DNA from: a virus
Strand: one strand, 5' to 3'
Virus record (IMG/VR): IMGVR_UViG_3300009082_000256
Location: 1 to 20,197 of that record
Length of the DNA: 20,197 bases
Of this stretch, positions 1-19,706 are shown in pieces. A program made the position numbers and the translations under genes. The notes under the pieces are model-generated. The model searched no databases and was not told the DNA's origin. It was given only the letters and a program-made list of their open reading frames with translations. The number at the start of each line of letters is the position of its first letter. Position 1 is the stretch's first letter.

Positions 1-314
1 GCGAGTGGGAGTGACATCAGAAACGTCCACTCCGGCATCGTTAGGAAGGCCAGTGAAAAGGCAGCCCCTATCCAAACGCTCGCGCACCACATGCACGTCA
101 GCCCCTTCGCCAATTCGTTCGTTCCCATCGCCACGTTTGCGGCAGAGTATCGCACGCCAACCGCATGACGCAATCGAGCGAATACTTCCCATGGACCATC
201 CTCCCGAACCAGCAGGCTCGTCACCCTGAATACCGCAAGCGCCAGAATGACGAACGCCCACGGACCAGCCGACCAGTCCGATAGGCGCACCCACAGTATA
301 GCGTCAGGCGGCAT
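1..314 (-). CDS. DUF1360-like membrane protein, C-terminus cut by window edge
   Basis: An open frame reads from an ATG at 314 through position 1 without a stop, giving 104 visible residues. The translation has a hydrophobic segment at about residues 19-36 (AFVILALAVFRVTSLLV), then REDGPWEVFARLR at 37-49, then LTCMWCASVWIGAAFSLAFL at about 72-91 as a second membrane segment. The pattern 'hydrophobic helix, R-x-T/S, E-D-G-P, CxxC-x-S-x-W, hydrophobic helix' is what I know from the DUF1360 family of small phage and Bacillus membrane proteins, whose biochemical role is unknown. The start overlaps the end of the glycosyltransferase gene by 11 nt. A weak AAGG lies about 9 nt upstream, and a GTG at 290 is an alternative start. 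The family call is from memory of the pattern, not a search. Confidence 0.72.
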   Translation of the reverse strand, partial: MPPDAILWVRLSDWSAGPWAFVILALAVFRVTSLLVREDGPWEVFARLRHAVGVRYSAANVAMGTNELAKGLTCMWCASVWIGAAFSLAFLTMPEWTFLMSLPL

Positions 315-759
315 TGGGCGCAACCTTCGACTTCTTCTTCGCCTTCTTTGGCTTGGTCAACGTGCCGTCAACTTTCACGGGATGACCAGCCTCAACCTCG
401 AAGGCAGTCGGCACATTGGCCGGGACATCTGGCGGCGGCGGAGGTTCAGGTTGAGGCACAACCGGAGCGACGGCTCGTACCTCCTGCGGCACGACTTCGA
501 ATAGGTGCGGCTGAACCTCGATGTCCTTGCGATGCACAAGGAACACTTCGCCGCCGCCACGGAAGCCGTAGCGCGTGCCCGTAGCCAGCCCCAGCACAAT
601 ATGCTGGCCTCGGTTCGGGTGCGTGTATCTGGTCAACAAGTAGTCTTGGTCTTGCATCTTGGCCTCCTGTTCGGCGGGCAGCGCTACAGCGAAAGGCGCA
701 AGCTGGCCTTCGGCAACCTTGATGCCGCTAGTCCGTCCGCCTCTGCATCCACAGCCCAT
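304..759 (-). other. Possible internal-start product of the glycosyltransferase gene (151 aa, or 117 aa from 657)
   Basis: Inside the 958-codon gene and in the same frame, ATG 759 (residue 808, MGCGCRGG) has a textbook ribosome binding site, AAGGAG at 766-771, with 6 nt spacing. ATG 657 (residue 842, MQDQDYLLTRYTHPN) has AGGAGG at 663-668 with 5 nt spacing. The segment begins exactly where glycosyltransferase homology ends. It resembles small free-standing phage proteins with an MxCGC start, or with an RYTHPNRG...YGFRGGG...F-VH-DI pattern, encoded near head genes. It may be made separately as well as fused. This is inference from the start signals and the domain boundary; no product is known. 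Confidence 0.4.
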
Positions 760-3180
760 CGGTTGCTCCTTGGCATACTTCTCTTGCATGTAGGCGATGA
801 GGTCTTTGTGACCCTCGACGCCCAACTCACGACGACCACCGGTATAGAAGCGATAGACCACTCCCTGCTCCGGCACGCGGATGAAGCACTTCCCGGCCCT
901 TGCCAGTCGCCATTGATAGTCTACATCTTCCCACGACTTCATGTTCTCATCGAAGCCGCTTATCTCATCGTGCCACGCCTTCGGGACGAGGCAGGTGACA
1001 AGCGCCCAATGATAAAGCGGCGCTTCCGGTTGCCGGATGGCTCGCTCACAATCATAGTCAGCAGAGCGATAGCCTATGCGTGCTTCCTTGGTGCGCTCAT
1101 CGAAGTCGATGATGTTGTCTTGCAAGTCCTTCGCCAAGCCCTTCGGGTCAACGAAGGCGCGCCCGATGTAGTCGCAATAAGGGATGGCGTTCTCCAGCCG
1201 CCAAGCCTCGATAAGCATGTCCAGCGTCCACGGCAGCAGGTAATCGTCGGCGTCCAGCCACAGCAGGAACGAGCCACGCGCTTCTCTCGCTCCAAGGTTG
1301 CGACACGCGCCTGCGCCCGTGCGCCCAGCCGTGAAGATGAACCGGGCGAAGGGATAGGCGTCAAGCAGCGCCATGTCCGGGTCATCGCCCGTATCATCTA
1401 CGACGATGGCTTCCCACTTGGTAAAGGTTTGACCCTCCAACGAATCCAGCGCATCGACCAGATACTTGCGATGGCCGGGTCCGCAGGGAATGACCACCGT
1501 GACCAGCGGCGTGTCATACTGCCTGACTGGGTGCGAGTAGCGTGCTGGTTGAGCATAGGAAGCGAAGGGGTGCTGGCCGTTGCCTTTCTTGCCAGCCCAC
1601 GGATGCCAAGGCAGCCAGTCAATTTCCCGGTAGTCCGCATTGCCGCTGACGTGACCAGACATCCATGAGTAGTGGAACAGCCCTTCATTCGTGACCCGCT
1701 TGGCAGCGTAGCCAATTGCCCCGGCCCGAAGCCAGAACTCCGCATCCTCACTTCCGGCTCCATGAGGCGCGTACCGCTGCCGATAGCCTCCAAGTCTGCT
1801 CCACATCTCGGTCCGGAACACACAGCAGGTCGGCACCTGATTGCGCCGCAGAAGCTGAGCGTTGTAGTCCCAATCGGTCGGCCACTTGGAGAGGTCGGAT
1901 GTTCCGTCTGGCTTGTGCCACGTCAAGCCGGTGTAGGCGATGCCGAGCGACGCGTCTGCCTGAAGCGCCCGAATGCAAACGGACAGGAAGGTCGGGTCAA
2001 TCTTGTCATCAGCGTCGAGGCAGCAGACGTACTTGATGCCTCGCTCGCGCGCCCACGCGATGCCGCGGTTGCGCGCATGCGCCACCCCTGCGTTGTCCTG
2101 CCGGATGTATTGCAAAAGAGAAATATCCCGCCCCATCGCCTGCACAACATCGCCGGTGTTGTCGGTGCTGCCATCGTCCACCACGACGATAGCTTTGAGG
2201 TCGATATAGTCCTGAGACGCGGCACTGCGAATTGCATCTGACACGCGACCGGCGTAGTTGTAGGTCGGGATAATGATTGCCACGGAAGCCGGGGATTGCT
2301 TGGCTTCCAGCGTCAGCCGGTAGGTATCGGCCACCTTCGCCACCTGCCGAGGCCACGTCCATTCGCTAACCATGTGCAAGGCGTTGCGGCTCAGGGAAGC
2401 CCTGTGAGCCGCGCACCAGCGCAAGCCAGCTTCCAACTCATCATAGTCGCCCACGCTCGCTAGGTAGCCGTTCAGACCATGAACAACGTACTCTAGGATG
2501 CCGCCGTGACGCCAACCTAGCACCGGGACGCCTGAGGCGAGCGCTTCGAGCGTGCCGATGCCGAAGGTCTCCTTGGTCGTGGCAAGATAGACGCCCGCCT
2601 GCTTGACTACGCCCTTCATCTGGTCGTGGCGCATCAGCCCTGTCAGGCGCACGTTGGAAGGCTGCTCACCATCCGCGAATGTGCTGACGAAGTGCAGGTC
2701 AGGGCAGCGCCGAGCGAGCTCGGTCATCGGCCGTGGGTCACACACATCACCGGTGCGGTTCTTGTTCCAGAGGACATAGCCAGCGTTCTCGCCGGGAGCG
2801 CCCCACGCCTCGAGGTCTATGCCGTGACCGATGACATCAGGCGTGAAGTGCATGTCCCGCTGGAACGCCTCCGCCACCCATGCGCTCGGCACGGTGACCC
2901 GCAAGGCCGCACGCAGGTCACGGATGACATTGCTGTTGGTCGCCCACTCCCACGCCTGCGCCGCATAGTCCGCCGTCCAATACAGACCGTGGCAGTGACA
3001 GACATCGGGAACTTGCATGCCAAGACCAGCGTGTGACGCAAACAGGTCGAAGCTCTGATACGGGTCGTCAATCAACGTCACGCCGAAGTCCGGCAGGTAG
3101 CGGTTGTAAGCCTCGATGACGCGGTTGATGCCGCTCTCGCCGCCCAGCTTCTTGAGGTAAGGGACCATCAGGACGCGCAC
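304..3180 (-). CDS. Multidomain glycosyltransferase (GT4-GT2-GT2) with C-terminal phage-type module
   Basis: 958 residues from GTG 3180, overlapping the upstream methyltransferase gene by 13 nt. An ATG at 3168 is possible but would remove the first strand residues MRVL. Residues 1-290 look like a GT4 (GT-B) enzyme: an N-terminal Rossmann-like strand and an E-x7-E pattern at E204/E212 in TKETFGIGTLEALASG. Residues 299-520 are a GT2 (GT-A) domain with IIIPTYN, VVVDDGSTDNT (332-342), LDADD (388-392) and SEDAEFWLR (477-485). Residues 559-790 are a second GT2 domain with VTVVIP, VVDDTGDD, WLDADD (641-646) and WEDVDYQWRL (750-759). All three keep the expected acidic residues, so all may be active. 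Residues 808-958 are not glycosyltransferase: a Cys/Gly start (MGCGCRGG), a compact segment at 840-897, a Pro-rich linker and a Lys-rich tail. The protein probably builds a short glycan in the host cytoplasm; acceptor and sugar are unknown. Confidence 0.88.
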   Translation of the reverse strand: MRVLMVPYLKKLGGESGINRVIEAYNRYLPDFGVTLIDDPYQSFDLFASHAGLGMQVPDVCHCHGLYWTADYAAQAWEWATNSNVIRDLRAALRVTVPSAWVAEAFQRDMHFTPDVIGHGIDLEAWGAPGENAGYVLWNKNRTGDVCDPRPMTELARRCPDLHFVSTFADGEQPSNVRLTGLMRHDQMKGVVKQAGVYLATTKETFGIGTLEALASGVPVLGWRHGGILEYVVHGLNGYLASVGDYDELEAGLRWCAAHRASLSRNALHMVSEWTWPRQVAKVADTYRLTLEAKQSPASVAIIIPTYNYAGRVSDAIRSAASQDYIDLKAIVVVDDGSTDNTGDVVQAMGRDISLLQYIRQDNAGVAHARNRGIAWARERGIKYVCCLDADDKIDPTFLSVCIRALQADASLGIAYTGLTWHKPDGTSDLSKWPTDWDYNAQLLRRNQVPTCCVFRTEMWSRLGGYRQRYAPHGAGSEDAEFWLRAGAIGYAAKRVTNEGLFHYSWMSGHVSGNADYREIDWLPWHPWAGKKGNGQHPFASYAQPARYSHPVRQYDTPLVTVVIPCGPGHRKYLVDALDSLEGQTFTKWEAIVVDDTGDDPDMALLDAYPFARFIFTAGRTGAGACRNLGAREARGSFLLWLDADDYLLPWTLDMLIEAWRLENAIPYCDYIGRAFVDPKGLAKDLQDNIIDFDERTKEARIGYRSADYDCERAIRQPEAPLYHWALVTCLVPKAWHDEISGFDENMKSWEDVDYQWRLARAGKCFIRVPEQGVVYRFYTGGRRELGVEGHKDLIAYMQEKYAKEQPMGCGCRGGRTSGIKVAEGQLAPFAVALPAEQEAKMQDQDYLLTRYTHPNRGQHIVLGLATGTRYGFRGGGEVFLVHRKDIEVQPHLFEVVPQEVRAVAPVVPQPEPPPPPDVPANVPTAFEVEAGHPVKVDGTLTKPKKAKKKSKVAPNAA

Positions 3181-3890
3181 GAAGCACCGCCTGTCTCGGA
3201 CACCATGTACTCGCCATTGACCGCCGGGACAGTCGAATACATCCTATATGCCCGGCGCCAATGCTCCTCTGCCCACGCCATAAACCATTCGGTGTTCGGC
3301 CACTTGTTCCAACCGGCATGATAGGCGAACAGGAATGATTGTGGCCGCAAGCCATCCATGAAAGCATCCCGCTCGTCGATAGGCGTTTCATTCAACGAGA
3401 AGCATCCGATAAGCAGGTCAGGGCTATCGTGCCTTCCAATGACGACGTTGCTCTTGATGTTCCGATAGCTCAAGTGCTCGACAGCCATCATGGCGAACGG
3501 CTCAAGGTCGGTGATGTAGTGCTCTCCTCTGAAACCCATGCGGTCCAGCACGATAGCCATTGCACCGTAGCCGCCGCCAAATTCGCACACCGTCTTCAAG
3601 TCGGCCACCCGCATTCCGGGGTTATGCTGCTCCCATTGCCACAGGTGATAGCGCTGGCAGTACAGGTTTGACCAATCAGGCTCGCTGCCTATTCCGTACA
3701 GATTGATGCCCTCGTCGAGAAGGATGCGCGACATCTGCGCCAGCGCGGGTCCGTCACCGACGTACATCGTCGCCTCGACTGTCGGCCACCACCAAGGCAC
3801 TGCGATTGCATGCGGCAGCGCCGCTCGTTCAAGCGCCAACGCCTCGCACTTGGACATCCAGTAGACATCCTTGCTCGTGAGTGGTTGCAT
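3168..3890 (-). CDS. SAM-dependent methyltransferase-like protein, probable sugar O-methyltransferase
   Basis: 240 residues from ATG 3890, which overlaps the stop of the DegT-type gene (TGATG). The frame is open further upstream, but that part is only a shadow of the DegT gene. Residues 102-110 (CEFGGGYGA) match the SAM-binding motif I (E/D-x-G-x-G-x-G), and D128 in YITDLEP fits the acidic motif II residue that holds the ribose. The N-terminal 100 residues are Trp/Tyr-rich and not catalytic-looking, as in 'putative sugar O-methyltransferase' proteins of polysaccharide clusters. Its position between a sugar PLP enzyme and a large glycosyltransferase suggests it methylates a sugar hydroxyl or caps a glycan. 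Substrate is unknown; a non-sugar acceptor is possible. Confidence 0.75.
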   Translation of the reverse strand: MQPLTSKDVYWMSKCEALALERAALPHAIAVPWWWPTVEATMYVGDGPALAQMSRILLDEGINLYGIGSEPDWSNLYCQRYHLWQWEQHNPGMRVADLKTVCEFGGGYGAMAIVLDRMGFRGEHYITDLEPFAMMAVEHLSYRNIKSNVVIGRHDSPDLLIGCFSLNETPIDERDAFMDGLRPQSFLFAYHAGWNKWPNTEWFMAWAEEHWRRAYRMYSTVPAVNGEYMVSETGGASCAS

Positions 3891-5086
3891 CAGGAAGGTG
3901 ACCGCCAGTAGCCTTCGAAGACCTGCGCTACGTACTCGATGTCCTGCGGCGTGAGGTCCGGGTGGCAGCCGATATACATGCCTTGCTGGTCTGTCCAATC
4001 GGCCACTGGATAGTCCTCGCGCCGTAGCATGTCTTGGTAGATGGGCTGCGAGACAATCGGCATCATGTCGCGGGTCTCGACCCCCATCATGTTGAGATAG
4101 CCGCAGAAGTGTTGCTTGTTCGTCTCCGGCGGGAGGACGATGGGATACATCATCCATGCGTGCTCATTGTCAGGAGCGACGCGCGGCAGCACAAGTCCCA
4201 CCCCGAGATATTGAGCAATCATGCCCAGCCTTGCTGTCAGATGAGCCGCGTTACGTCTGCGAAGCGCCAGCATTTCCTCATAGGTTTCAAGCTGAGCAAC
4301 GCCAAGCGCCGCCTCCAATTCGGTAATACGATACGAGTGGCCTGCGTGGGTGAAGTGGAAAGAGCGCCCCGGCATCGGCTGAGGCGAGAACCAAGCATCA
4401 GTATTCAACTCCGCAATGTCCAGCCCGTGATTGACCAGCGAGCGCATCTTGCTGGCGTATGCCGGTGAGCTCGTCGTCGCAATCCCTCCGACGCCAGTCG
4501 TGATGAGATGAGCATTGTAGGTGGAGAAGCACCCGATGTCGCCCATGCTGCCGACGAGCCGACCCTTATGCCGAACGAACATCGCCTCACATGAGTCCTC
4601 GATGACCTTCAAGTCATGGGCGGCGGCAATCGCCAGTAGTTCATCCATCAGGCACGACTGCCCGTAGAGATGAACCGGTATCATGGCGACAGTATCCCGG
4701 CTGACCTTCTGCTCGGCCTCCCGCGGGTCCATGCCGTAGGTCACGCCTTCGATGTCCACGAACACAGGCGTCAGATTGTTGTGCAGCACGACATTGACCG
4801 TCGCCACGAAGGTCGACGCAGGCACAAGCACCTCTGCCCCATCCGGCCAACCGTGAAGTTCCTTCAATGCCTGCACCGCCACATGCAGGCTCGACGTCCC
4901 GCTGTTGCTCAGAATGCCATAGGGACACCCATGCTGACCAGCGAACATGCGCTCGAATGCCATGCTCATTGCGCCGTAGCTGATGCGCCCGCTGTCCAGC
5001 ACGGAATCGACTAGCTCCTTCATCCGTGGCGTGGCGCGGAACGAACCGACCGGAACATGCCGGAAGGCGTATTCGGAATGGCCCAT
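3890..5086 (-). CDS. DegT/DnrJ/EryC1/StrS-family PLP enzyme with His in place of the catalytic Lys
   Basis: 398 residues, the usual length for this fold-type I family. ATG 5086 has a strong ribosome binding site (GGAGGTG, 5091-5097) overlapping the end of the upstream gene. Recognisable features are SNSGTSSLHVAVQAL (60-74), the VPASTFVATVN block (88-98), VIEDSCEA (161-168) with D164 expected to bind the PLP pyridine nitrogen, and FSTYNAHLITTGVGG (187-201). In sugar aminotransferases the last block reads FS-x(4)-K-x-x-T-x-G-x-GG. Here residue 193 is His, and the codon reads CAT on the coding strand. The known His-bearing members, ColD and the E1/RfbH 3-dehydrases, remove the C-3 hydroxyl of nucleotide-4-keto-6-deoxysugars instead of transaminating. 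A 3-deoxysugar role is therefore plausible, but RfbH needs a partner reductase and none is in the window. Family certain, reaction inferred. Confidence 0.9.
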   Translation of the reverse strand: MGHSEYAFRHVPVGSFRATPRMKELVDSVLDSGRISYGAMSMAFERMFAGQHGCPYGILSNSGTSSLHVAVQALKELHGWPDGAEVLVPASTFVATVNVVLHNNLTPVFVDIEGVTYGMDPREAEQKVSRDTVAMIPVHLYGQSCLMDELLAIAAAHDLKVIEDSCEAMFVRHKGRLVGSMGDIGCFSTYNAHLITTGVGGIATTSSPAYASKMRSLVNHGLDIAELNTDAWFSPQPMPGRSFHFTHAGHSYRITELEAALGVAQLETYEEMLALRRRNAAHLTARLGMIAQYLGVGLVLPRVAPDNEHAWMMYPIVLPPETNKQHFCGYLNMMGVETRDMMPIVSQPIYQDMLRREDYPVADWTDQQGMYIGCHPDLTPQDIEYVAQVFEGYWRSPS

Positions 5087-5089
5087 CGT

Positions 5090-5812
5090 TCACCTCCAGT
5101 AGTGGAGCATGCCGAGCTTATCCATCTCGGCTACGTCGTCAGGCCTCAATTCGTCGGTCAGCAGCTTCCCGTGGTCGCCGCCACGCAAGGCAAGTGTGTG
5201 CTTGACCGGCGGCGTCTTGGTACCAAGCACGATAACGTAGTCCTTGAGCAGCCGAAGGCGAGGCGTCCCGTTCAGTTCGCTCTCCCATGGCGTCTCGTTC
5301 TCGATAAGTATCTTGAGCAGATGCTGCCTGCGCCAGAGCGCCGTCATGTAGGAGAAGTGATACGGGCTGTCCGGGTCGCTGATAATGAGCGGCACGTTGC
5401 CAGCCATGCCGTAGTCCTTGGCGAAACCGCTGTTGAGCCGGTCGCCAGTGAGGTCGAAGCGGGCGACGTACTCGAACTGCTTCATGTAGTCGGCACATAC
5501 CTGCACCGCCTCGCCATCCACCGGACCCGTCAACCAGTAGTCCTCCAACATCAGCACAAACACATCGTGCGGCATTTCCAGCAGCAACCGAATGAGCGCA
5601 TTTGACCAGCGGGCAACGGGATAGTCCTCGTACTTGCCGATGGAGTGGAAAGAGAAGTTGCGCGGCAACTGGAAGTCGGGAGGCGTGAAGCCACCTACGA
5701 CGACCTGCGGGTTCGGCTTCCAATACCTGTTGAGCAGGTAGGCATAGCCGCGCAGGGCGGGAAGGTACTTGTCGCTTGTGAGGACGTAGATGGGAGCATC
5801 CACGCCACCCAT
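5090..5812 (-). CDS. Glycosyltransferase-like protein, first gene of the glycan cassette
   Basis: 240 residues from ATG 5812. The N-terminus (APIYVLTSDKYLPALRGYAYLLNRYW, shown in two parts: APIYVLTSDK at 6-15 and YLLNRYW at 25-31) and VLMLEDYWLTGPVD (86-99) resemble GT-A-like proteins of polysaccharide and phage clusters. In these a 'LxLEDDxxxxxPVD' strand supplies the metal/sugar acidic residues; here only E90 and D91 are visible. NALIRLLLEMPHDVFVLMLED is typical of the helix and strand before the acidic motif. No signal peptide or membrane segment is seen. There is no clear Shine-Dalgarno sequence, and the start lies only 13 nt beyond a strong hairpin. The next gene begins 4 nt after its stop region. 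Acceptor and donor are unknown, and assignment is by motif and context only. Confidence 0.6.
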   Translation of the reverse strand: MGGVDAPIYVLTSDKYLPALRGYAYLLNRYWKPNPQVVVGGFTPPDFQLPRNFSFHSIGKYEDYPVARWSNALIRLLLEMPHDVFVLMLEDYWLTGPVDGEAVQVCADYMKQFEYVARFDLTGDRLNSGFAKDYGMAGNVPLIISDPDSPYHFSYMTALWRRQHLLKILIENETPWESELNGTPRLRLLKDYVIVLGTKTPPVKHTLALRGGDHGKLLTDELRPDDVAEMDKLGMLHYWR

Positions 5813-5886: not shown

Positions 5887-7332
5887 TTACCAAACGTGGC
5901 GGGTCGTCTCGTCCGGCCGCATGGACACACCACCGTCCATGAAGTACGGGTCGGTCGGGTCCGGCGAGCGGAAGTGCTGGGTCGGGCAGTACTTGATTGC
6001 GTCGATGCGCCCGGCAAGCTGCGGCGTTCGAAGCACCACGCGCTGCTCCGTCTTGACCGACAGCTTGTAGCACCACTTCACGCTCTCGATGGCCCAGTAA
6101 TACTTGCCATCGTCGGTCCAGAAGTCCTGCATGCCGCGGAGCAGGTTGACATCCGGCATCGCTGCCCGGTAGTCAATGTGCTCCATGTAGGTCACGTTCA
6201 TCCCTGCGGCGGTCAGCGGGACCATGTAGATGCTGGACGCATAGCAGCCAGCGGGCACGTTGGCGTTGTTCGTGTTGTTGTGCTCGAAGATGCCCGTGTC
6301 GGTCACAACGGGATAGCGCCGCCCGTTGATGTCGATGAACATGCCGCGCCGCATCTCGTCACGATAGCGGGTCATGGCGGCGGCGTCGACCATCGGCACC
6401 GGGTCAATCTGGCTGGTGTCCATCACCGCGCACTTGTTCGTGTTGTACGCGCACGGCCATACGGCGCTCAGCACGAACCAGAGTTCGGGTCGCATGCAGA
6501 TGACCCAATTCACGGGCAGCAGGCCCATGTGCTCGGCGTTGAAGTAGAGATACGCCTCAAGCGCCGACAGGAAGCTCACGATGTCGCGCAGGCTGTTGAA
6601 GTCCTCGACGTCCTGATAGCCGAAGTTCTTGACATCGGAGTCGAGCGCCGGACACAGCGTGCCGGTGTGAGCGTCCATCTGGCCCGTCGCAATCTGATAG
6701 GCCAGTCCCGGGAACTCCTTGTATCCGCCGGTGTTGGCGAAGATGGAGCCCGTCCACAGGTGCTTTGCCAGCTTGCGCTCCAAGCTCACGACCGCCGTGA
6801 GCATCTCCGCCTTCGTGACAATGTTCAGCACGTCAGCGTCGCTCATACCGGAGGGCATGAAGCCGGAGTCATTGCCGACGAGGCTCCCGTAGAGCCGCAG
6901 GTCGGTGAAGTCGCCACGGTTCTTCTTGAGCATCACGTCGTTGATTTCGATGGTGCCGGTGTCCCGCGCCACACGGCCGAACTGCGCCGTCAGGTCGCAC
7001 GACTTCATGTACGACCGCGGGTTGTCACCGCACATCGTGGCGCTTTCACTGCCGACATCGGCGGTGAAGCCGGTGACGGCAGCGTAGAACGGCTGCTCGT
7101 ACACCGTCGGCAGGTTGGGCAGGAGCGCAGCCAAGCCGAACGGTTTGATGTGTGCGGTGAAGACCTCCCGCTCAATCGAGTGCGACCCGAAGAGCGAGCC
7201 CACGCCGTGCAACTCCACCGCATTGCCTGCGTTGGCAGGCGTCTTGGTGTGCTCCTTGGTCTGCATTGCCTCAAGGAGCTCGGTCTGCTTCGCCAGCGTA
7301 GCGGCGAGCAGTTCCATTGTCTTCTCGTCCAT
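5887..7332 (-). CDS. Major capsid protein
   Basis: 481 residues. ATG 7332 carries the best ribosome binding site in the window (GAGGAGG at 7340-7346, 7 nt spacing), as expected for the most abundant virion protein. Residues 1-30 form a short heptad-like helix (LAATLAKQTELLEAMQ), which may be a small N-terminal delta/scaffold segment. The body from about 55 contains AAVTGFTADVGSESATMCGDNPRS (split here: AAVTGFTADVG at 84-94, CGDNPRS at 101-107), then FGRVARDTGTIEINDV. That run of residues is typical of the HK97-fold capsid proteins of many siphophages. It follows the protease/scaffold gene directly, and a terminator hairpin follows it. No frameshift or Ig-like extension is visible. The call rests on position, size and expression signals as well as sequence pattern. 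Confidence 0.85.
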   Translation of the reverse strand: MDEKTMELLAATLAKQTELLEAMQTKEHTKTPANAGNAVELHGVGSLFGSHSIEREVFTAHIKPFGLAALLPNLPTVYEQPFYAAVTGFTADVGSESATMCGDNPRSYMKSCDLTAQFGRVARDTGTIEINDVMLKKNRGDFTDLRLYGSLVGNDSGFMPSGMSDADVLNIVTKAEMLTAVVSLERKLAKHLWTGSIFANTGGYKEFPGLAYQIATGQMDAHTGTLCPALDSDVKNFGYQDVEDFNSLRDIVSFLSALEAYLYFNAEHMGLLPVNWVICMRPELWFVLSAVWPCAYNTNKCAVMDTSQIDPVPMVDAAAMTRYRDEMRRGMFIDINGRRYPVVTDTGIFEHNNTNNANVPAGCYASSIYMVPLTAAGMNVTYMEHIDYRAAMPDVNLLRGMQDFWTDDGKYYWAIESVKWCYKLSVKTEQRVVLRTPQLAGRIDAIKYCPTQHFRSPDPTDPYFMDGGVSMRPDETTRHVW

Positions 7333-10304: not shown

Positions 10305-10485
10305 CGGGTTGTTGCTCCGCAACGTAGCGGTAGAAGTCGATGTCCTCTTCCCGAACGCCGTAGGCGAACTTCATCCACCACCTCCATAGCCAATCATTGT
10401 CCCATCGCTGCACGATGGCCTTGGCCTGCTCCACGATACCAGCATACACGTCTGGATGCATGAACACCCGCGACTCCCTGCTCAC
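10297..10485 (-). CDS. Small uncharacterised protein, 62 aa
   Basis: GTG 10485 overlaps the stop of the upstream gene (GTGA). ATG 10461 (MHPDVYAGIVEQAK) is an alternative start with a GGGTG a few bases upstream. The product is Trp-rich (AIVQRWDNDWLWRWWMKFAYGV in 23-44) and helical, with no signal peptide. It lies directly before the MuF-like gene and overlaps it, so it is probably a small virion or assembly protein. I do not recognise the family. Confidence 0.55.
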   Translation of the reverse strand: MSRESRVFMHPDVYAGIVEQAKAIVQRWDNDWLWRWWMKFAYGVREEDIDFYRYVAEQQPDE

Positions 10486-10913
10486 ATCATTGCCAGCAAC
10501 AGTACGGTCTCGTCATCGGCCAAGATGATGTCCTGCTCTGATGGTTCTTCCTCAATCCATGATGGCGGTCCGCCCACGCTTATGACCATTGGAGGCGGCA
10601 CAACTGGAGCGATGCCCGGAAGATAAGTCCCCGCCCCGCTCGCTATCGCTACGCCCGCGATGCTGGACTTGCCTTGCCAATTGCTGATGAGCGTGCCTGC
10701 GCCAGCCACCGTGGCTACGCCGAACACAGATGCAAGACCGGCGCATAGCGCACGTCCCGCGCCTGACGCGACGGCTATGCCAGCAACAGACGCTGCTCCT
10801 ATATAGCTCGCCTTGCCTACACCTGATGCCGACGCTACTCCGGCAACGCTTGCCGTGCCGTTGTAGGTTGCCGCACCACCCGCAGGCTTGCTGCCGAAGA
10901 AGATAAAGCTCAT
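10482..10913 (-). CDS. Gly/Ala/Ser-repeat virion protein, 143 aa
   Basis: ATG 10913 lies 3 nt after the stop of the upstream gene. Residues 21-102 contain four copies of a 20-22 residue unit, roughly ASVAGVAxASGAGxxxxxGx. These start at 21, 41, 61 and 83. Then follow a Pro-rich turn (VVPPPMVISVGGPPSW, 104-119) and an acidic end (EEEPSEQDIILADDETVLLL). Such low-complexity G/A repeats occur in small phage appendage and tail-tip proteins. Residues 84-100 could be mistaken for a membrane helix, but repeated glycines argue against it. Function unknown; it may be a flexible decoration or adhesin linker. Confidence 0.6.
   Translation of the reverse strand: MSFIFFGSKPAGGAATYNGTASVAGVASASGVGKASYIGAASVAGIAVASGAGRALCAGLASVFGVATVAGAGTLISNWQGKSSIAGVAIASGAGTYLPGIAPVVPPPMVISVGGPPSWIEEEPSEQDIILADDETVLLLAMM
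10608..10853 (-). repeat. Four degenerate in-gene repeats (60-66 bp each) coding for a G/A/S unit
   Basis: Units begin at codons 21, 41, 61 and 83 of the 143-aa gene. At protein level each reads x-S-V/I-x-G-V/I-A-x-A-S-G-x-G. The DNA copies have diverged, so the array is old and held by protein-level selection, not a recent slippage product. Confidence 0.6.
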
Positions 10914-12431: not shown

Positions 12432-12833
12432 TTATTGCAGGGCGATGTCGAGCGCGCCTGCGGCGAACTGGTACTGGTCGCCCGTGTTCTTAAGCGTGGC
12501 CGCTGTGCAGACGCCGTGGAACAGCAGGTTGCCCGCAGCGTTGGCGTCGAAGATGCCGAAGCCGCCGACCACGAAGTCCACCCCGCCAGTCATCGGCCCG
12601 AAGGTGATGGCGTTGGTGTTCTCGGTCGTGCCGGTGCCAGCCGGAGCGTCCCAAGCATTGACCTGCTGACGGGCATAGCCGGTCATGGCACACTCGGTCG
12701 CTCCCACGCCTGCATCGCCCGGGTCACCGTCAAACAGCGCCACCCACACCTGTAGGCCCGGCGTCGCCCACGCTCCGTTGCGAAGGATGTGGTCAATCAA
12801 TTCGTCTTCGAGGTAGTCGCTGAACGCGCTCAC
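12432..12833 (-). CDS. Tail-fibre-like/virion structural protein, 133 aa
   Basis: GTG 12833 is chosen because GGAGG lies 8 nt upstream and GTG overlaps the portal stop (GTGA); a GTG at 12848 lacks such a site. The product starts VSAFSDYLEDELIDHILRNG, followed by WATPGLQVWVALFDGDPGDAG, then YARQQVNAW, then NAITFGPMTGGVDF, VVGGFGIFDANAAGNLLFHG and a final strand. The pattern 'helix, P-x-x-x-W/Y-V-A-L-F, YARQ, ITF, IFDA-x-x-GNLLF-G' is common to a widespread family of small phage proteins annotated as tail-fibre or structural proteins. It is likely a beta-rich virion surface subunit. It stands directly after the portal gene. Confidence 0.68.
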   Translation of the reverse strand: MSAFSDYLEDELIDHILRNGAWATPGLQVWVALFDGDPGDAGVGATECAMTGYARQQVNAWDAPAGTGTTENTNAITFGPMTGGVDFVVGGFGIFDANAAGNLLFHGVCTAATLKNTGDQYQFAAGALDIALQ

Positions 12834-14863
12834 TTCTTCCGCCTCCACGTCTTGCGGATAGCAGAGATTAGACCCTGCGCGTTCCGCGTGACATTGACAG
12901 TTTCCTCTACGTCGTCAAAGACGTGCACCTCGACCTTGTTCTCAATGGGCGGAGGCACGTGCTTGACGTTCACCACAGGCGCAGGCGCTGCCTGTACCGT
13001 CACGTTGGGCGCAGGCGGCGCAGCGATGTTGACAATGGTCGGCGGGGGAGGCTCGACTGTGACGTTGACGATAGGAGCAGGAACGTCCACACGGATGTCG
13101 GGCAAGCGCTGCTCCGGCACCTGCACGATGACCGGAGGGATTTCAATGGCCTTCCGGGCGAGATAGGACCGCAGGCCCGGTTTCCGATTGAGCTCTTTCA
13201 CTTCGCCCTCCTCGGTATCAGTCAAGTCGTCTTGCGCTGCTGCTTCCTCCTCTCCTTCCTCCGCCTCCGGCTCGGTGACTTCGTCCGCTTCCGGCTCACT
13301 TTCATCCTCCATGCCAATGTCAGTTACGGGAGGCTTCGGCTCGTCATCGCCTTCGTACAATCGCTCCAGCGCATCCACCGCTGCCAGCCCGTTCAGCACA
13401 GCATCACGTTGCCGGTAGTTGCTCAACATGCCAAGCGCCTGCGTTAGCTCAGCACGTTTCTGGCTGATAAGCACTTCCATGGTCGAAGCGTCATTGCCTT
13501 CCACGTCCACAGGGTTCGGTATGCCCATCGCAAGCATCTCGACGTACTGGTCGTCAAAGAACAGGGACAGGATAGGCGAGCCGTCTTCCAGCCGTCCATC
13601 GTTGCGCTCTAGGTCATTGAACTGCTCTTGCGTGAGGTCTCCAACTTGCAGCATCTGCTCCCGGACCACCCGCTGCGACACCGATTCATTCGCAAGGCCG
13701 ATGTCATGCGCGTCGGCCCGAACCTTGCGTATCTCGGCTACCTGCCTGTCTTGAGCATCGTCGGAGTAGTCAAAGACAAGCCGCAAGTGAGGGGGAAGGA
13801 ACTTGGCTCCAATCACCCGCTCGCTTAGTTCAATCAACTGCCCGATGCCCTTCTGCCGTGCCTTTAGGTGTTGAATGAGCGCATCGGCTCGGGTAGCGCC
13901 GGTGCCAGTCATCGGCCACAACTCACGAGCGTCCACGCCGAAGGCCAGCGCAATCGCTGCCATGCCGAGGCTCACCGTATCCTGCTCGTTGAAGCCGTCT
14001 GGCATGCTGGCGAGGTCGATAAGGCTCAGGTCAGCTTCCTTGAGGCCAGCATCACCGACAACGATGGTCTTGCTGTAGCGAGAGAGGCCTTGGTTGTCCT
14101 GCGTTTCATTGGCTAGCTGGATGGCTTCACGGACGTGCTCAGGGTCAAGCCCGCCCTTGGTCACCATCAGGCCACGCGCCGGTCGGCTGCCAAGCTTCTC
14201 CTGCTTGTAGATGGTCATGTCGTACAGGTTCTGCGCCACGTTCAAGCACTTGCTCACGGCGCACAGGCCGACATCGTTCATCTCGGCAATAGGCGATGGG
14301 TCGAGCGAGGCGAAGGCGCAACGGGTGTAGTGCATCTTGTAGCGAGTGCCGTCTGTGTCCTGATAGATGACCGGGAACTCGGCATTGGACGTGCGGGTGC
14401 AACGAGCGCTGTCAAGCGACGCTACGCTGATGGGCGCACCAACGATAGGCCCGACAGGGTCGCCCTCCCCGATGACTTCCGCAAAGGCTCCGTTATCCTG
14501 CGTGAGCAGGTCGGTTATCCACTTCGAGAAGAACGTCGTCCAGCCACGCCCGAACTCAGCGCCGTCCAGCAGGATGTTCTCGAACCGGTCGGCCTGCACT
14601 TGGTGAGACATGATGGACAGGTCGTAAGGAACAATCTGCCACGGGATTGTGGTCATGTGTGAGACGAGGGCATACACCGCTCCGGCAAGGTAGTCGACGC
14701 GCTTGTAGAAGCGCCGAAGCTCTTGGTCCCGCCGAGTGGACCACCACGGGGGGATAAGCTCGCCAGCCGTCGACAGCCACAGAAGCAAGCCGAGCCGATT
14801 CTCTGCATCGGCTCGCACCCTGCTTTGAACTGTCTCACGCACCGCACCGGAGTTGTCAGGCAT
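12830..14863 (-). CDS. Portal protein with long C-terminal extension
   Basis: 677 residues from ATG 14863. The start overlaps the end of the terminase gene by 8 nt and has AAGGAG 8-9 nt upstream. Residues 1-440 look like an SPP1/HK97-type portal: WWSTRRDQELRRFYKRVDYL near the start, the LYDMTIYKQEKLGSRPARGL helix, and the GVDARELWPMTGTGATRADA region typical of the portal crown/stem helix. Residues about 500-560 are very acidic (EPEADEVTEPEAEEGEEE). Residues 576-648 hold repeated strands such as PAPIVNVTVEPP, PTIVNIAAPPAPNVTV and APVVNVKHVPPP, and the end is basic (KTWRRKK). The extension of about 180 residues is longer than the core needs; it may bind scaffold or DNA. Confidence 0.88.
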   Translation of the reverse strand: MPDNSGAVRETVQSRVRADAENRLGLLLWLSTAGELIPPWWSTRRDQELRRFYKRVDYLAGAVYALVSHMTTIPWQIVPYDLSIMSHQVQADRFENILLDGAEFGRGWTTFFSKWITDLLTQDNGAFAEVIGEGDPVGPIVGAPISVASLDSARCTRTSNAEFPVIYQDTDGTRYKMHYTRCAFASLDPSPIAEMNDVGLCAVSKCLNVAQNLYDMTIYKQEKLGSRPARGLMVTKGGLDPEHVREAIQLANETQDNQGLSRYSKTIVVGDAGLKEADLSLIDLASMPDGFNEQDTVSLGMAAIALAFGVDARELWPMTGTGATRADALIQHLKARQKGIGQLIELSERVIGAKFLPPHLRLVFDYSDDAQDRQVAEIRKVRADAHDIGLANESVSQRVVREQMLQVGDLTQEQFNDLERNDGRLEDGSPILSLFFDDQYVEMLAMGIPNPVDVEGNDASTMEVLISQKRAELTQALGMLSNYRQRDAVLNGLAAVDALERLYEGDDEPKPPVTDIGMEDESEPEADEVTEPEAEEGEEEAAAQDDLTDTEEGEVKELNRKPGLRSYLARKAIEIPPVIVQVPEQRLPDIRVDVPAPIVNVTVEPPPPTIVNIAAPPAPNVTVQAAPAPVVNVKHVPPPIENKVEVHVFDDVEETVNVTRNAQGLISAIRKTWRRKK

Positions 14864-16238: not shown

Positions 16239-17072
16239 CTAGACCGGCTTGCCATCGACCTTGAGCACCATACCAAACGTCGGGTCGGATGGCATCTCCG
16301 CTCCGGGCTTCAACCGCAGTCGATTGAAGCGGAACGGCGAGTAGTCGACAACATGCTGCGGCCTGCCCCACCTGGCCCGAATGGTCACAACGTCCGGGTG
16401 CTGACGTTGCAAAGACAGAGCCATTGCAGCGCGCCCCCCGCCCTTATAAAGCTCATCCGTATTGCCGCCCTTCATGCGCATCGTGCCTTCCTTCGCCGCG
16501 AGAAACGCATAGAACAGCAGCGTGCACCATCCATCCTTCAAGCAGCGAAGCGAGAGGTCCGTGTCCTCGTTGTAGCGCCCACGCCACCGATAGGGCAAGT
16601 CGTTGCGGAGCAGGATGCAGGAATAGATGCGGGTGTTGATGTCAAGAGCAGGATACCTTAGCTTGCGAGGAGCAAACATCGCATACTGCATCCCTGCTTG
16701 CGCCACGTTCTCAAACCTGCCCGCAAAGTCCTCGATGGCAGCAAAGGCCCCGCCGTTGCTCAAGCGCCATTTTATATTCCTGTGCAGGCGATAGAACTCG
16801 CGGATGTTGTCGTCCAGTATCCAATGCCACTTTGCTCCAGCGGCAATCGAGTGCTCCCACACGAAGTTGCGCGCCGGGATAGACCCCTGCCCAAGGTTGG
16901 AGAACGGCGTCACGATAAGCAACTCGGGCGGGATGACCTCGGCATAGGCGTCGTGCTCCTGCGGCTCTACGACCACATGAAACGGAACGCCGATACGAGA
17001 CAGCGCCTTGGCAGTCGGCCGTGACTTCCACCTACCTTTGGAGATGATGTAGATGGGATGAATCGGGTTCAT
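16239..17072 (-). CDS. TET-associated-type glycosyltransferase (TAGT-like), copy 2
   Basis: 277 residues from ATG 17072, in ATGA overlap with the second ParB-like gene. The frame is open up to 17258 but the extra residues are a shadow of the ParB gene. SKGRWKSRPTAKAL (11-24), GSIPARNFVWEHS (63-75), WHWILDDNI (82-90) and YNEDTDLSLRCLKDGW (167-182) fit the TAGT group as I know it: a GT-A-like fold with a DDN metal site and an E-D-T-D-L block. MKGGNTDELY and RWGRPQHVVDY near the C-terminus are also typical. Family members are predicted to put a sugar on hydroxymethyl- or oxidised pyrimidines in phage DNA. Substrate here is inferred; protein glycosylation is not excluded. Confidence 0.78.
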   Translation of the reverse strand: MNPIHPIYIISKGRWKSRPTAKALSRIGVPFHVVVEPQEHDAYAEVIPPELLIVTPFSNLGQGSIPARNFVWEHSIAAGAKWHWILDDNIREFYRLHRNIKWRLSNGGAFAAIEDFAGRFENVAQAGMQYAMFAPRKLRYPALDINTRIYSCILLRNDLPYRWRGRYNEDTDLSLRCLKDGWCTLLFYAFLAAKEGTMRMKGGNTDELYKGGGRAAMALSLQRQHPDVVTIRARWGRPQHVVDYSPFRFNRLRLKPGAEMPSDPTFGMVLKVDGKPV

Positions 17073-17704
17073 GTCGTGAACCGCTTTAGGTTTTCCTTGA
17101 GCTTCCGGGGATACCAAATAGCTCTCGTCTTCATCGTCACGGGCTGAGCAACCGCCTTCGCAAACTCGGCGACGCTCTTCTCGTCCTCGAAGTGCACAAT
17201 GACTGAGTGCAGGCTGTTCATGTTCTTCTCGTTCACGAACTCCGGCATGAACTTCCATATCTCCTCGACCGTCACTTCCGTGAGCTTGCCAGCAACGCGG
17301 TCGAGCATCAGTTGCAGGCTGGCGTCCTGCTCGCCTATATCGGCAAGCAGGGCATCCATCTTGTCCGTATCGACACCCGCTAGGGAGCCTATCGGGTCAA
17401 AGACAGCCAGCACGCGACCCTCCTCATCGTCTGTCAGGTCAACGTACTTCACTGGAACCGATGTCTCGTGGCGCTTCTGCGCCAAAGCAACTCGCAGGTG
17501 TCCGTCGAGAACGAAGCCGGTGCGCTTATTGACAATCACCTCGTCAATCCATCCGACATCCGCCAGCACCGCCGACAGCGCATTCTCCTGTAGAAGGGGA
17601 TGCAGTCTCCAGTTGCGCGGGTTCGCCATCAGGTCGCCCGGAGGAACGTCCGCATGACCGACGATGCGATTCCTCCACTTCTTCGGCTTCTTCGTGGCGG
17701 CCAT
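17069..17704 (-). CDS. ParB-like (ParB/Srx fold) protein, copy 2
   Basis: 211 residues from ATG 17704 with AGGA about 7 nt upstream. Residues 18-110 are a ParB/sulfiredoxin-like domain: DLMANPRNWRLHP (24-36), GWIDEVIVN (51-59), the signature GFVLDGHLRVALA (64-76) and VFDPIGSLAGVD (101-112). The C-terminal part (SVIVHFEDEKSVAEFAKAVA, then IWYPRKLKENLKRF) is a small alpha/beta domain that differs from copy 1. There is no HTH or plasmid-partition domain, so it is not a partition protein. Phage ParB-like proteins next to TAGT and methylase genes may bind or process modified DNA or nucleotides. It is translationally coupled to the glycosyltransferase gene after it, suggesting joint action. Confidence 0.85.
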   Translation of the reverse strand: MAATKKPKKWRNRIVGHADVPPGDLMANPRNWRLHPLLQENALSAVLADVGWIDEVIVNKRTGFVLDGHLRVALAQKRHETSVPVKYVDLTDDEEGRVLAVFDPIGSLAGVDTDKMDALLADIGEQDASLQLMLDRVAGKLTEVTVEEIWKFMPEFVNEKNMNSLHSVIVHFEDEKSVAEFAKAVAQPVTMKTRAIWYPRKLKENLKRFTT

Positions 17705-18207: not shown

Positions 18208-18912
18208 CTAGAAGTCCAGTTCGACGCTATAGGACGAGCCGCCCCGCACGACCCGCCGGATATAGCGGGGATACATGGCAATCAGACGTTGAATGGCATC
18301 CTCTTCCATCTCCTGCGTGCGGTAGTCCTTGCATCCGCCGTCCAGCGCCCAATGCTCATTCTGCCAATAGGCGAAGCGTGCAGCAACCACGCCGCCAAAG
18401 TCCCGCATGCAGCGGAGGCACAGCTCGTAGTCCTCTTTGACCTGAAACGCTTCATCGAAGCGGAGCTTGTCGTTGATGATGCCCATGCAGCTTGCCGTCA
18501 CATAGGAGCGCCACAAGAAGGGGCGATAGGGATAGACCGACCTTGGAGCGCCATCCGTCGCCACTCCCCATACCGGATAGCCGATGTCCTCGCAGACCTC
18601 GAACAGCCGGAACCAAACAGACAGCCATTCCTCCTCCGTCAGGCCCAATCTCGAAACGTCGGTGTCGTTCAACTGGATATAGCCGTGGGTCACAACATCG
18701 TCGTCAATGAAGACGACGTAGCGCTCTTTTGTGTTGTCCAGTATCCAGTTCCTTGTCTTCGTGATGCCATGCACGGGGACGCCGACGACCGATGGGAACC
18801 GCGCGGCGTAGTCCTCTACCTCCTGCTCCGGCACGAAGAGCGTGGCAGACGGAATGACAGCGAGCGTCTTGACCTTATCGCTTCGGTTCTTGCTGGGAAC
18901 TGCTATCAGCAT
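18208..18912 (-). CDS. TET-associated-type glycosyltransferase (TAGT-like), copy 1
   Basis: 234 residues from ATG 18912 (MLIAVPSKNRSDKV); an earlier start at 18945 would add a non-matching leader. It overlaps the ParB-like gene by 38 nt. Features are IAVPSKNR (3-10), LFVPEQEVEDYA (25-36), TKTRNWILDN (51-60), VVFIDDDVV (66-74) with the DDD metal site, a CMGII strand (142-146), KEDYELCLRCMRDFGG (159-174) and GGCKDYRT (192-199). The R-x-x-T...TRN...IDDD...ED-x-x-L order matches the TAGT group. It is shorter and has a different metal motif from the copy at 16239-17072, so it likely uses another sugar or step. DNA as acceptor is inferred from the family and the ParB partner. Confidence 0.75.
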   Translation of the reverse strand: MLIAVPSKNRSDKVKTLAVIPSATLFVPEQEVEDYAARFPSVVGVPVHGITKTRNWILDNTKERYVVFIDDDVVTHGYIQLNDTDVSRLGLTEEEWLSVWFRLFEVCEDIGYPVWGVATDGAPRSVYPYRPFLWRSYVTASCMGIINDKLRFDEAFQVKEDYELCLRCMRDFGGVVAARFAYWQNEHWALDGGCKDYRTQEMEEDAIQRLIAMYPRYIRRVVRGGSSYSVELDF

Positions 18913-19612
18913 TTGTCTGCACCGCCGCATCCACAAGCGCTGCAATCGCGCCCATGAGTCTCTGGAACGGAATGACGCGCTCCGTTCCTACGGAATTGAA
19001 TGTCGACACATTCGAATAGCCGCCGCGCTTTACCGCACGCAATTGGAGCAGCTTCTTGAGCGTATCGAAGTCCGCAGCATCGACGCACGTGACCACGATA
19101 TATTCATTCTGCGGCTTCAGTTGGACAGCCTGCTCATAGATGGTGACATCTCTCGCCGGGGGATTGGTGTCCTCGCCATAAGACACGCCTTCCGCATCTG
19201 CCACCATTGCGAGCAAAGCATCTGCCCCCACCTTGGCCTTATTCAACTCATTCAACAGGTCGGCCAGCTTGTCCTCATCGACCGCAGCCATCGAGCCGAT
19301 AGGGTCAAGTGTTGCCATGACCAAGGCTTCCTCAGCCTCCGTGAGCCGCACGTACTTGACGGGCATCCTCTTCTCGTTCCGGCGCAACGCAAGCGACGCG
19401 CGCAAATGCCCGTCCACCACAAAGCCAGTCGTCTCGTTGACGATGACTTCATCGACCCAGCCCACTTCATCCAGCACCATCTCAAGCGCAAGCTGTTGCT
19501 TCTTCGGGTGGATGCGCCAATTGCGGGGATTGGCAAGCAGGTCGCTGGGGTCTACCTCTGCCGTGCTTGTAATTCTACTGCGCCACTCTGGTTTATCCTT
19601 CGTCTTGGCCAT
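18875..19612 (-). CDS. ParB-like (ParB/Srx fold) protein, copy 1
   Basis: 245 residues from ATG 19612, chosen because the start then aligns with the paralogue (MAKTKDKPEWRSRI against MAATKKPKKWRNRI); a GTG at 19618 is possible. Residues 20-112 repeat the ParB-like domain: LLANPRNWRIHP (25-36), GWVDEVIVN (51-59), GFVVDGHLRASLALRRNEK (64-82), TLDPIGSMAAVD (101-112). After a linker, EYIVVTCVDAADFDTLKKLL (170-189) begins a second small domain ending in RVIPFQRLM, which may carry the partner or base recognition. It is the first gene of the late block in this window and overlaps the TAGT-like gene. No ribosome binding site is seen. Confidence 0.85.
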   Translation of the reverse strand: MAKTKDKPEWRSRITSTAEVDPSDLLANPRNWRIHPKKQQLALEMVLDEVGWVDEVIVNETTGFVVDGHLRASLALRRNEKRMPVKYVRLTEAEEALVMATLDPIGSMAAVDEDKLADLLNELNKAKVGADALLAMVADAEGVSYGEDTNPPARDVTIYEQAVQLKPQNEYIVVTCVDAADFDTLKKLLQLRAVKRGGYSNVSTFNSVGTERVIPFQRLMGAIAALVDAAVQTNADSSSQQEPKR

Positions 19613-19706
19613 ACGCACATCATAGCATGGGATATAGCGGGAGCAAATGCAGCCCCGCAGAGTACCGCTGGACAGCCCTCGGGAAATGCTGCTCGGCAGT
19701 CTGCCA

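Follow-up and report, generated by a model that had tools for sequence, protein, structure and literature searches.

A probable virion-glycosylation cassette behind the capsid gene of a group of uncultured tailed phages

Why does a phage carry a row of sugar enzymes directly behind the gene of its major capsid protein, and on which acceptor do these enzymes act? To our knowledge, phage virion glycosylation is known from only a handful of mycobacteriophages, and it was reportedly the subject of a study by Freeman in 2023. In the present study, we analysed an IMG/VR virus record of 20,197 bases (the window), for which a first-pass annotation had proposed that such a cassette builds a glycan for the capsid or tail or, alternatively, extends the sugar placed on phage DNA by TAGT enzymes. 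The virion part of this interpretation is probably right, on indirect grounds, and the alternative of DNA-sugar extension is disfavoured. We judge it fairly probable that this locus of an uncultured group of tailed phages serves to glycosylate the virion, with a nested product of the large transferase gene GT3 and an enzyme output limited by a hairpin. The principle of a virion glycosylation cassette is known; the fixed fused transferase, the exchangeable sugar genes and the predicted nested gene are new. The layout with a fixed end and a variable middle, the nested gene and the hairpin were all missed by the first-pass annotation. The features concerned are the following.

5887..7332, minus strand: major capsid protein (HK97 fold by AF2 model), 481 aa
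5826..5853, minus strand: terminator-like hairpin of 12 pairs, 10 of them GC, with a weak T tail
5090..5812, minus strand: GT0, glycosyltransferase of predicted GT-A fold, 240 aa (AF2 model, structure matches, homologues)
3890..5086, minus strand: sugar enzyme of the DegT family, 398 aa, with the Lys-to-His change seen in 3-dehydratases (PF01041, alignments)
3168..3890, minus strand: SAM-dependent (sugar O-) methyltransferase-like protein, about 240 aa (start, weak TIGR04371 match, alignment)
304..3180, minus strand: GT3, GT4-GT2-GT2 glycosyltransferase with a C-terminal domain, 958 aa (Pfam, 35-sequence alignment)
766..771, minus strand: AAGGAG, predicted ribosome-binding site of the nested gene (sequence, family statistics)
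304..759, minus strand: predicted nested in-frame gene for the free C-terminal domain, 151 aa, beginning MGCGCRGG (ATG 759-757)
3..323, minus strand: small hydrophobic protein, cut by the window's end (assigned from relatives)

The capsid gene and the enzymes encoded behind it

The cassette genes were confirmed to lie on one strand and in tight packing where the first-pass annotation had placed them. The first begins 74 nt after the capsid stop, GT0 and the DegT gene are separated by 3 nt, the DegT stop and the methyltransferase start share 1 base, and the methyltransferase and GT3 genes overlap by 13 bases. The label of major capsid gene was also borne out, though without a family match: no family was found in the Pfam and PHROG searches, the 50,697 phage records held no match, and a sequence search of the PDB with the capsid and GT0 proteins gave no useful match. 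In structure comparison, the AF2 model (pLDDT 82) matched HK97-fold capsids at Z 14-21 overall, with the capsid of cyanophage A-1(L) at Z 21.4 and that of HK97 at Z 15.9, and on this model the gene product has the HK97 fold. Near relatives of the window DNA and of the GT3 C-terminal domain were absent from the phage collection in DNA and protein searches. Two further genes on the minus strand lie in the same region. The first (10482-10913, between the portal and capsid genes) encodes a 143-aa protein of degenerate Ala/Gly/Ser/Val repeats, possibly a surface fibre or glycan acceptor, and the second (12432-12848, between portal and protease) encodes a phrog_240 head protein (2.5e-22), which could be a decoration protein and accept the glycan.

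The first enzyme gene had been called glycosyltransferase-like, and the predicted structure of its product agrees. GT0 has no Pfam, no PHROG and no convincing NCBIfam match, and found no match among the 50,697 phage records. Its AF2 model (pLDDT 94.5) resembles B4GALNT1 (Z 15.7, 183 residues, rmsd 3.2) and GnT-I (Z 14.6), and the model together with the homologue alignment points to a GT-A fold with a conserved acidic motif.

The second enzyme matches PF01041 with an E value of 1.8e-86. In alignment, a His occupies the position of the PLP lysine, standing opposite the Lys of perosamine synthetase and pairing with the His of CDP-4-keto-6-deoxyglucose 3-dehydrase E1 (3bcx); among 18 aligned DegT sequences, His is found in 13 and Lys in 5. 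The His-for-Lys DegT enzymes ColD and E1 remove the C-3 hydroxyl from an NDP-4-keto-6-deoxy sugar. Because the same replacement is found here, the window's enzyme is predicted to strip this hydroxyl as well, and the deoxygenated glycan proposed earlier thus gains indirect support. The cysteines of E1 bind an Fe-S cluster and ColD is without them; in the window's enzyme, non-cysteines are aligned to these positions. The 4,6-dehydratase needed upstream of this step is not in the window, and with such an enzyme from elsewhere the DegT protein would make an NDP-4-keto-3,6-dideoxy sugar in the cytoplasm. For the methyltransferase-like frame the best start is ATG 3890. Its product matches TIGR04371 weakly (E 0.0027), has a SAM-type motif (EFGGGYGAM) that is mostly retained among relatives, and may tailor a sugar; the presence of this gene is indirect support for a methylated glycan.

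In a 35-sequence alignment of GT3, residues E204, D389, D391, E478, D479, D596, D643, D645 and E751 were invariant. We take these residues to be catalytic, and because they are kept across 35 relatives, all three transferase domains are likely to be active, which indirectly supports the earlier suggestion of a chain of several sugars. GT0 and the three GT3 domains would add sugars directly to a protein of the virion (capsid, decoration or tail) and build up a short glycan there. Among the 50,697 phage records, partial domain similarity to GT3 was found and none had a single place spanning 80% of the query. The window's GT3 ends in a Lys-rich tail. An extra helix-hairpin-helix-like tail after a Pro-rich linker is found instead in L011, L059, L012, L005, L053, L063, L065, L068 and L017, with a PF14520 match of 1.3e-4 in L005 and assignment by eye in the remaining contigs. 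The small hydrophobic gene usually follows GT3 directly in relatives; its product is hydrophobic in 46/48 copies and DUF1360-like in one relative.

Recurrence and variation of the locus in relatives

A synteny search for the cassette beside other capsid genes, as suggested with the first-pass annotation, gave a positive result. Profile searches of IMG/VR yielded 37 loci for GT3, 13 for GT0 and 12, then 80, for the capsid; the capsid-seeded set of 82 loci comprises the 80 from the second capsid search together with L059 and L068. A GT3-type transferase domain lies downstream on the same strand within 10 kb in 42 of the 46 capsid-seeded loci with at least 8 kb downstream, and the GT4-GT2-GT2 fusion in 39 of them. 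Upstream of the capsid, a GT3-type, GT0 or DegT gene was present in none of the 64 loci with at least 8 kb on that side. The 46-locus count keeps four apparent layout copies (L104, L117, L121 and L152), and with these removed by hand the figures are 38/42 for the transferase and 35/42 for the fusion. The capsid profile was built in part from GT3-seeded contigs; in the 32 loci new to the GT3 search, a subset that lessens this bias and does not remove it, the transferase is present in 28 and the fusion in 26. Three of the four loci without the transferase within 10 kb have GT0 (L061, L088, L110), and L114 is without it. Since the same layout recurs in dozens of contigs, the arrangement is far from chance. 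The cassette is a fixed feature of this group of uncultured phages. No earlier description of it was found in the open-access literature.

The nearest contig, L002, repeats the window's run of five genes next to its capsid gene, the last of them being the small hydrophobic gene; identities to the window are 74% for the capsid, 69% for GT0, 64% for DegT, 43% for the methyltransferase and 57% for GT3. In G002 (capsid 56%), GT0 comes first and GT3 with the hydrophobic gene last, and the middle is taken by other genes, which include a Methyltransf_24 protein and unassigned frames. This contig is also a counter-case, its cassette lying on the opposite strand and away from the capsid gene.

Same-contig and near-identical loci were removed with a hand-made list before the interval, nested-start, identity-matrix, hairpin and hydropathy counts. 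The interval between capsid and GT3 ranges from 20 to 9,840 bases across 49 contigs and measures 2.7 kb in the window. It yielded 283 frames, and 116 of these were scanned after thinning of large clusters. Epimerase/dehydratase types were frequent among the 116 (Epimerase 14, RmlD 14, GDP_Man_Dehyd 13 and Polysacc_synt_2 11, overlapping), three methyltransferase models matched 11, 11 and 8 of them, and other families were GT2 (7), sulfotransferase (4), GHMP kinase (4), GT10 (3) and HNH (3). We compared the identity matrix of each gene with that of the capsid. The correlation was 0.59 for the portal, 0.45-0.54 for the GT3 domains, 0.44 for the connector, 0.38 for the C-terminal domain, 0.37 for the protease and 0.32 for the hydrophobic gene. 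For GT0 it was 0.27 and for DegT 0.09 (58 of 200 permutations as high), and GT0 and DegT correlated with each other at 0.68. These values place GT3 among the genes of the head module, in which it is almost always present and descends together with the capsid. The nucleotide-sugar genes form an interchangeable group that is swapped among phages.

Some contigs have unusual insertions. ParB-family proteins of 450-495 aa stand between capsid and GT0 in L063 (13260-14744) and L065 (9880-11238), and in L128 (12207-14294) a sugar epimerase/dehydratase inside the cassette interval is split by an intein with a LAGLIDADG endonuclease. The closer GT3 relatives in named genomes belong to MAG bins of unrelated taxa (Desulfuromonadales, Methanothrix, Zixibacteria). 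One phage locus, L073 and L074, sits in two MAGs under different taxon names, so that the bin names do not reveal the host. The 143-kb contig IMGVR_UViG_3300031566_000001 contains two different capsid-GT3 loci (L014 and L016) and possibly represents two phages joined in assembly.

The hairpin and the predicted nested gene

Of 88 relative loci, 69 have a stable hairpin no more than 70 nt from the capsid stop (z < -2 when compared with mononucleotide shuffles); Rfam gave no match in the window. Because the window's hairpin stands in the 74-nt gap, the cassette is probably expressed by lower-level read-through or from its own promoter, and plain co-transcription at the capsid level is weakened. 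The hairpin 3' of the capsid gene would hold the enzyme output below that of the capsid.

In most copies of GT3, the C-terminal domain opens with M-x-C-x-C-G-G. Of the 52 fused copies, 49 have a start codon (43 ATG, 6 GTG/TTG) among the eight codons that precede the first cysteine. These 52 rows include a second fragment of L091, and the three rows without a start are that fragment, L092 and L095. In random eight-codon windows of the same genes, ATG occurs in 14% and any start in 37%. Averaged over the 43 junction ATGs, the Shine-Dalgarno energy was -8.6 kcal/mol; the 694 ATGs elsewhere inside the genes gave a mean of -2.9 (p 6e-23). The junction was stronger than the mean of its synonymous recodings in 47 of 49 copies (p 4e-12). 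Since the recoded mean of -6.2 is itself stronger than -2.9, part of the signal rides on the chosen amino acids. The GT3 gene therefore probably gives two proteins, the complete transferase and a free C-terminal domain whose translation would begin internally at 759. A nested gene within a phage glycosyltransferase was not found described in the open-access literature.

The internal start may instead be the relic of a once-separate gene that was fused to GT3, the free protein being no longer made. The domain does occur as a separate frame in three contigs (L038, L072 and L100), and the window's own nested site is unexceptional alone, being no stronger than its synonymous recodings. Against this, strength beyond the synonymous expectation has been retained in deeply diverged copies with differing amino acids, and the junction site nearly matches capsid starts (-9.2) in strength and surpasses GT3's own start (-6.3). 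We consider the relic explanation unlikely and continue with two products from one gene.

In phage lambda, the enzyme C carries a scaffold domain that is also made free as Nu3. By analogy, the domain shared by the two GT3 products could bring the enzyme to its target, and it may tether GT3 to the assembling particle. As a tentative and rather doubtful extension, the C-terminal domain would join the head or neck and deliver the GT4-GT2-GT2 part, the coat would be glycosylated during assembly, and the swapped sugar genes would define coat serotypes, much like those that bacteria owe to their capsule loci. The domain itself matched phrog_2069 weakly in 2 of 53 copies (best E 4e-4) and DUF7196 below the cut-off in one of 53 (E 0.008). 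An embedded gene in the same frame with its own ribosome-binding site is described for lysA (lysin241) of Ms6 in the cited part of PMC3111421. GT3 resembles both Ms6 lysA and lambda C/Nu3 in its predicted in-frame nested gene and differs from them in that the enzyme is a glycosyltransferase and the nested domain is without a clear known relative.

The acceptor of the glycan and comparison with known systems

Bacterial capsule and O-antigen loci have conserved ends and exchangeable nucleotide-sugar and transferase genes. The phage group shares the conserved ends and the swapped sugar genes with them; in contrast to these loci, it has the set in the head module, and three export families (GtrA, Bac_transf and Wzx) were each found in none of 48 relative records, with positive controls and in records that may be fragments. 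The absence of the GtrA flippase from these incomplete records also distinguishes the cassette from O-antigen conversion of the GtrABS type. Nevertheless, the enzymes might modify the host surface polysaccharide during infection, for example against superinfection, their location in the structural region being historical. In pelagimyophages and cyanomyophages, glycosyltransferases occur in a variable island of the structural region, the host recognition cluster; for pelagimyophages they are read as host LPS modifiers in PMC7029224. GtrB-like families are among the PHROGs matches of GT3. The likeness to our locus extends to the variable island and its place; unlike those islands, which comprise tail fibres and unrelated genes, ours has a fixed fused transferase at one end, with the sugar genes lying between it and the capsid. 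A surface acceptor also fits poorly with the flippases and the initiating phospho-sugar transferase (Bac_transf) not being found in the 48 records, with window GT3 and GT0 proteins that have no membrane-like segments by hydropathy, and with a GT3 that tracks the capsid. Furthermore, an integrase is present in only 4 of the 48 records, so that lysogenic conversion is ill-suited. Modification of the host surface thus appears decidedly unlikely to us.

Modification of the virion has a closer parallel in mycobacteriophages. In Corndog (cluster O), the block gp35-gp38, located between portal and protease, encodes three transferases along with a methyltransferase and was proposed to modify the capsid, according to the cited text of PMC4351075, and the capsid protein of Che8 and Rita is stated to bear glycans in the cited text of PMC11256854. 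Like Corndog, the window combines a methyltransferase with several glycosyltransferases within its structural module; unlike in Corndog, the cassette follows the capsid gene, and its fused transferase has three domains and a predicted nested gene. The group differs from the Corndog and Che8 kind in that its nucleotide-sugar genes are swapped, and in the searches against the 50,697 phage records GT0 gave no match and GT3 partial domain similarity. Throughout this group of uncultured phages, virion glycosylation seems to be an integral part of the head module. If this is true, the sugars on phage coats are under selection and diversify, and a direct handle on how the enzyme reaches its target is offered by the nested gene.

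The remaining acceptor is phage DNA, where the cassette would lengthen the sugar put on by two TAGT enzymes to give an oligosaccharide-bearing base. The window does carry two TAGT genes (PF20691, 2e-40 and 1.6e-8) beside its terminase genes, and the helix-hairpin-helix-like GT3 tails of several relatives count in favour of this acceptor. However, TAGT was above the cut-off in none of the 48 relative records, many of which are fragments, and the cassette sits in the head module. GT3 itself scored 13.0 bits against PF20691, below the cut-off of 27.5, and GT0 gave no match. Extension of a DNA sugar is therefore very improbable. A TET/JBP search also found nothing in the 48 records, and as its control was silent this result carries no weight. 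Taken together, the lipid-carrier and flippase families and the TAGT above cut-off, none of which was found in the 48 relative records, favour by their absence a virion-protein acceptor in the cytoplasm over glycans on DNA or the host surface. The conserved position within the head module, the inheritance of GT3 with the capsid and the lipid-export genes not found thus support, indirectly, the glycan for capsid or tail that had been proposed at first.

Because TAGT was above the cut-off in none of the relatives, the TAGT pairs of the window are probably a separate DNA-glycosylation addition. Each pair consists of a ParB-like and a TAGT gene on the minus strand (18875-19618 with 18208-18945, and 17069-17704 with 16239-17258), and the two pairs flank a small terminase-like gene.
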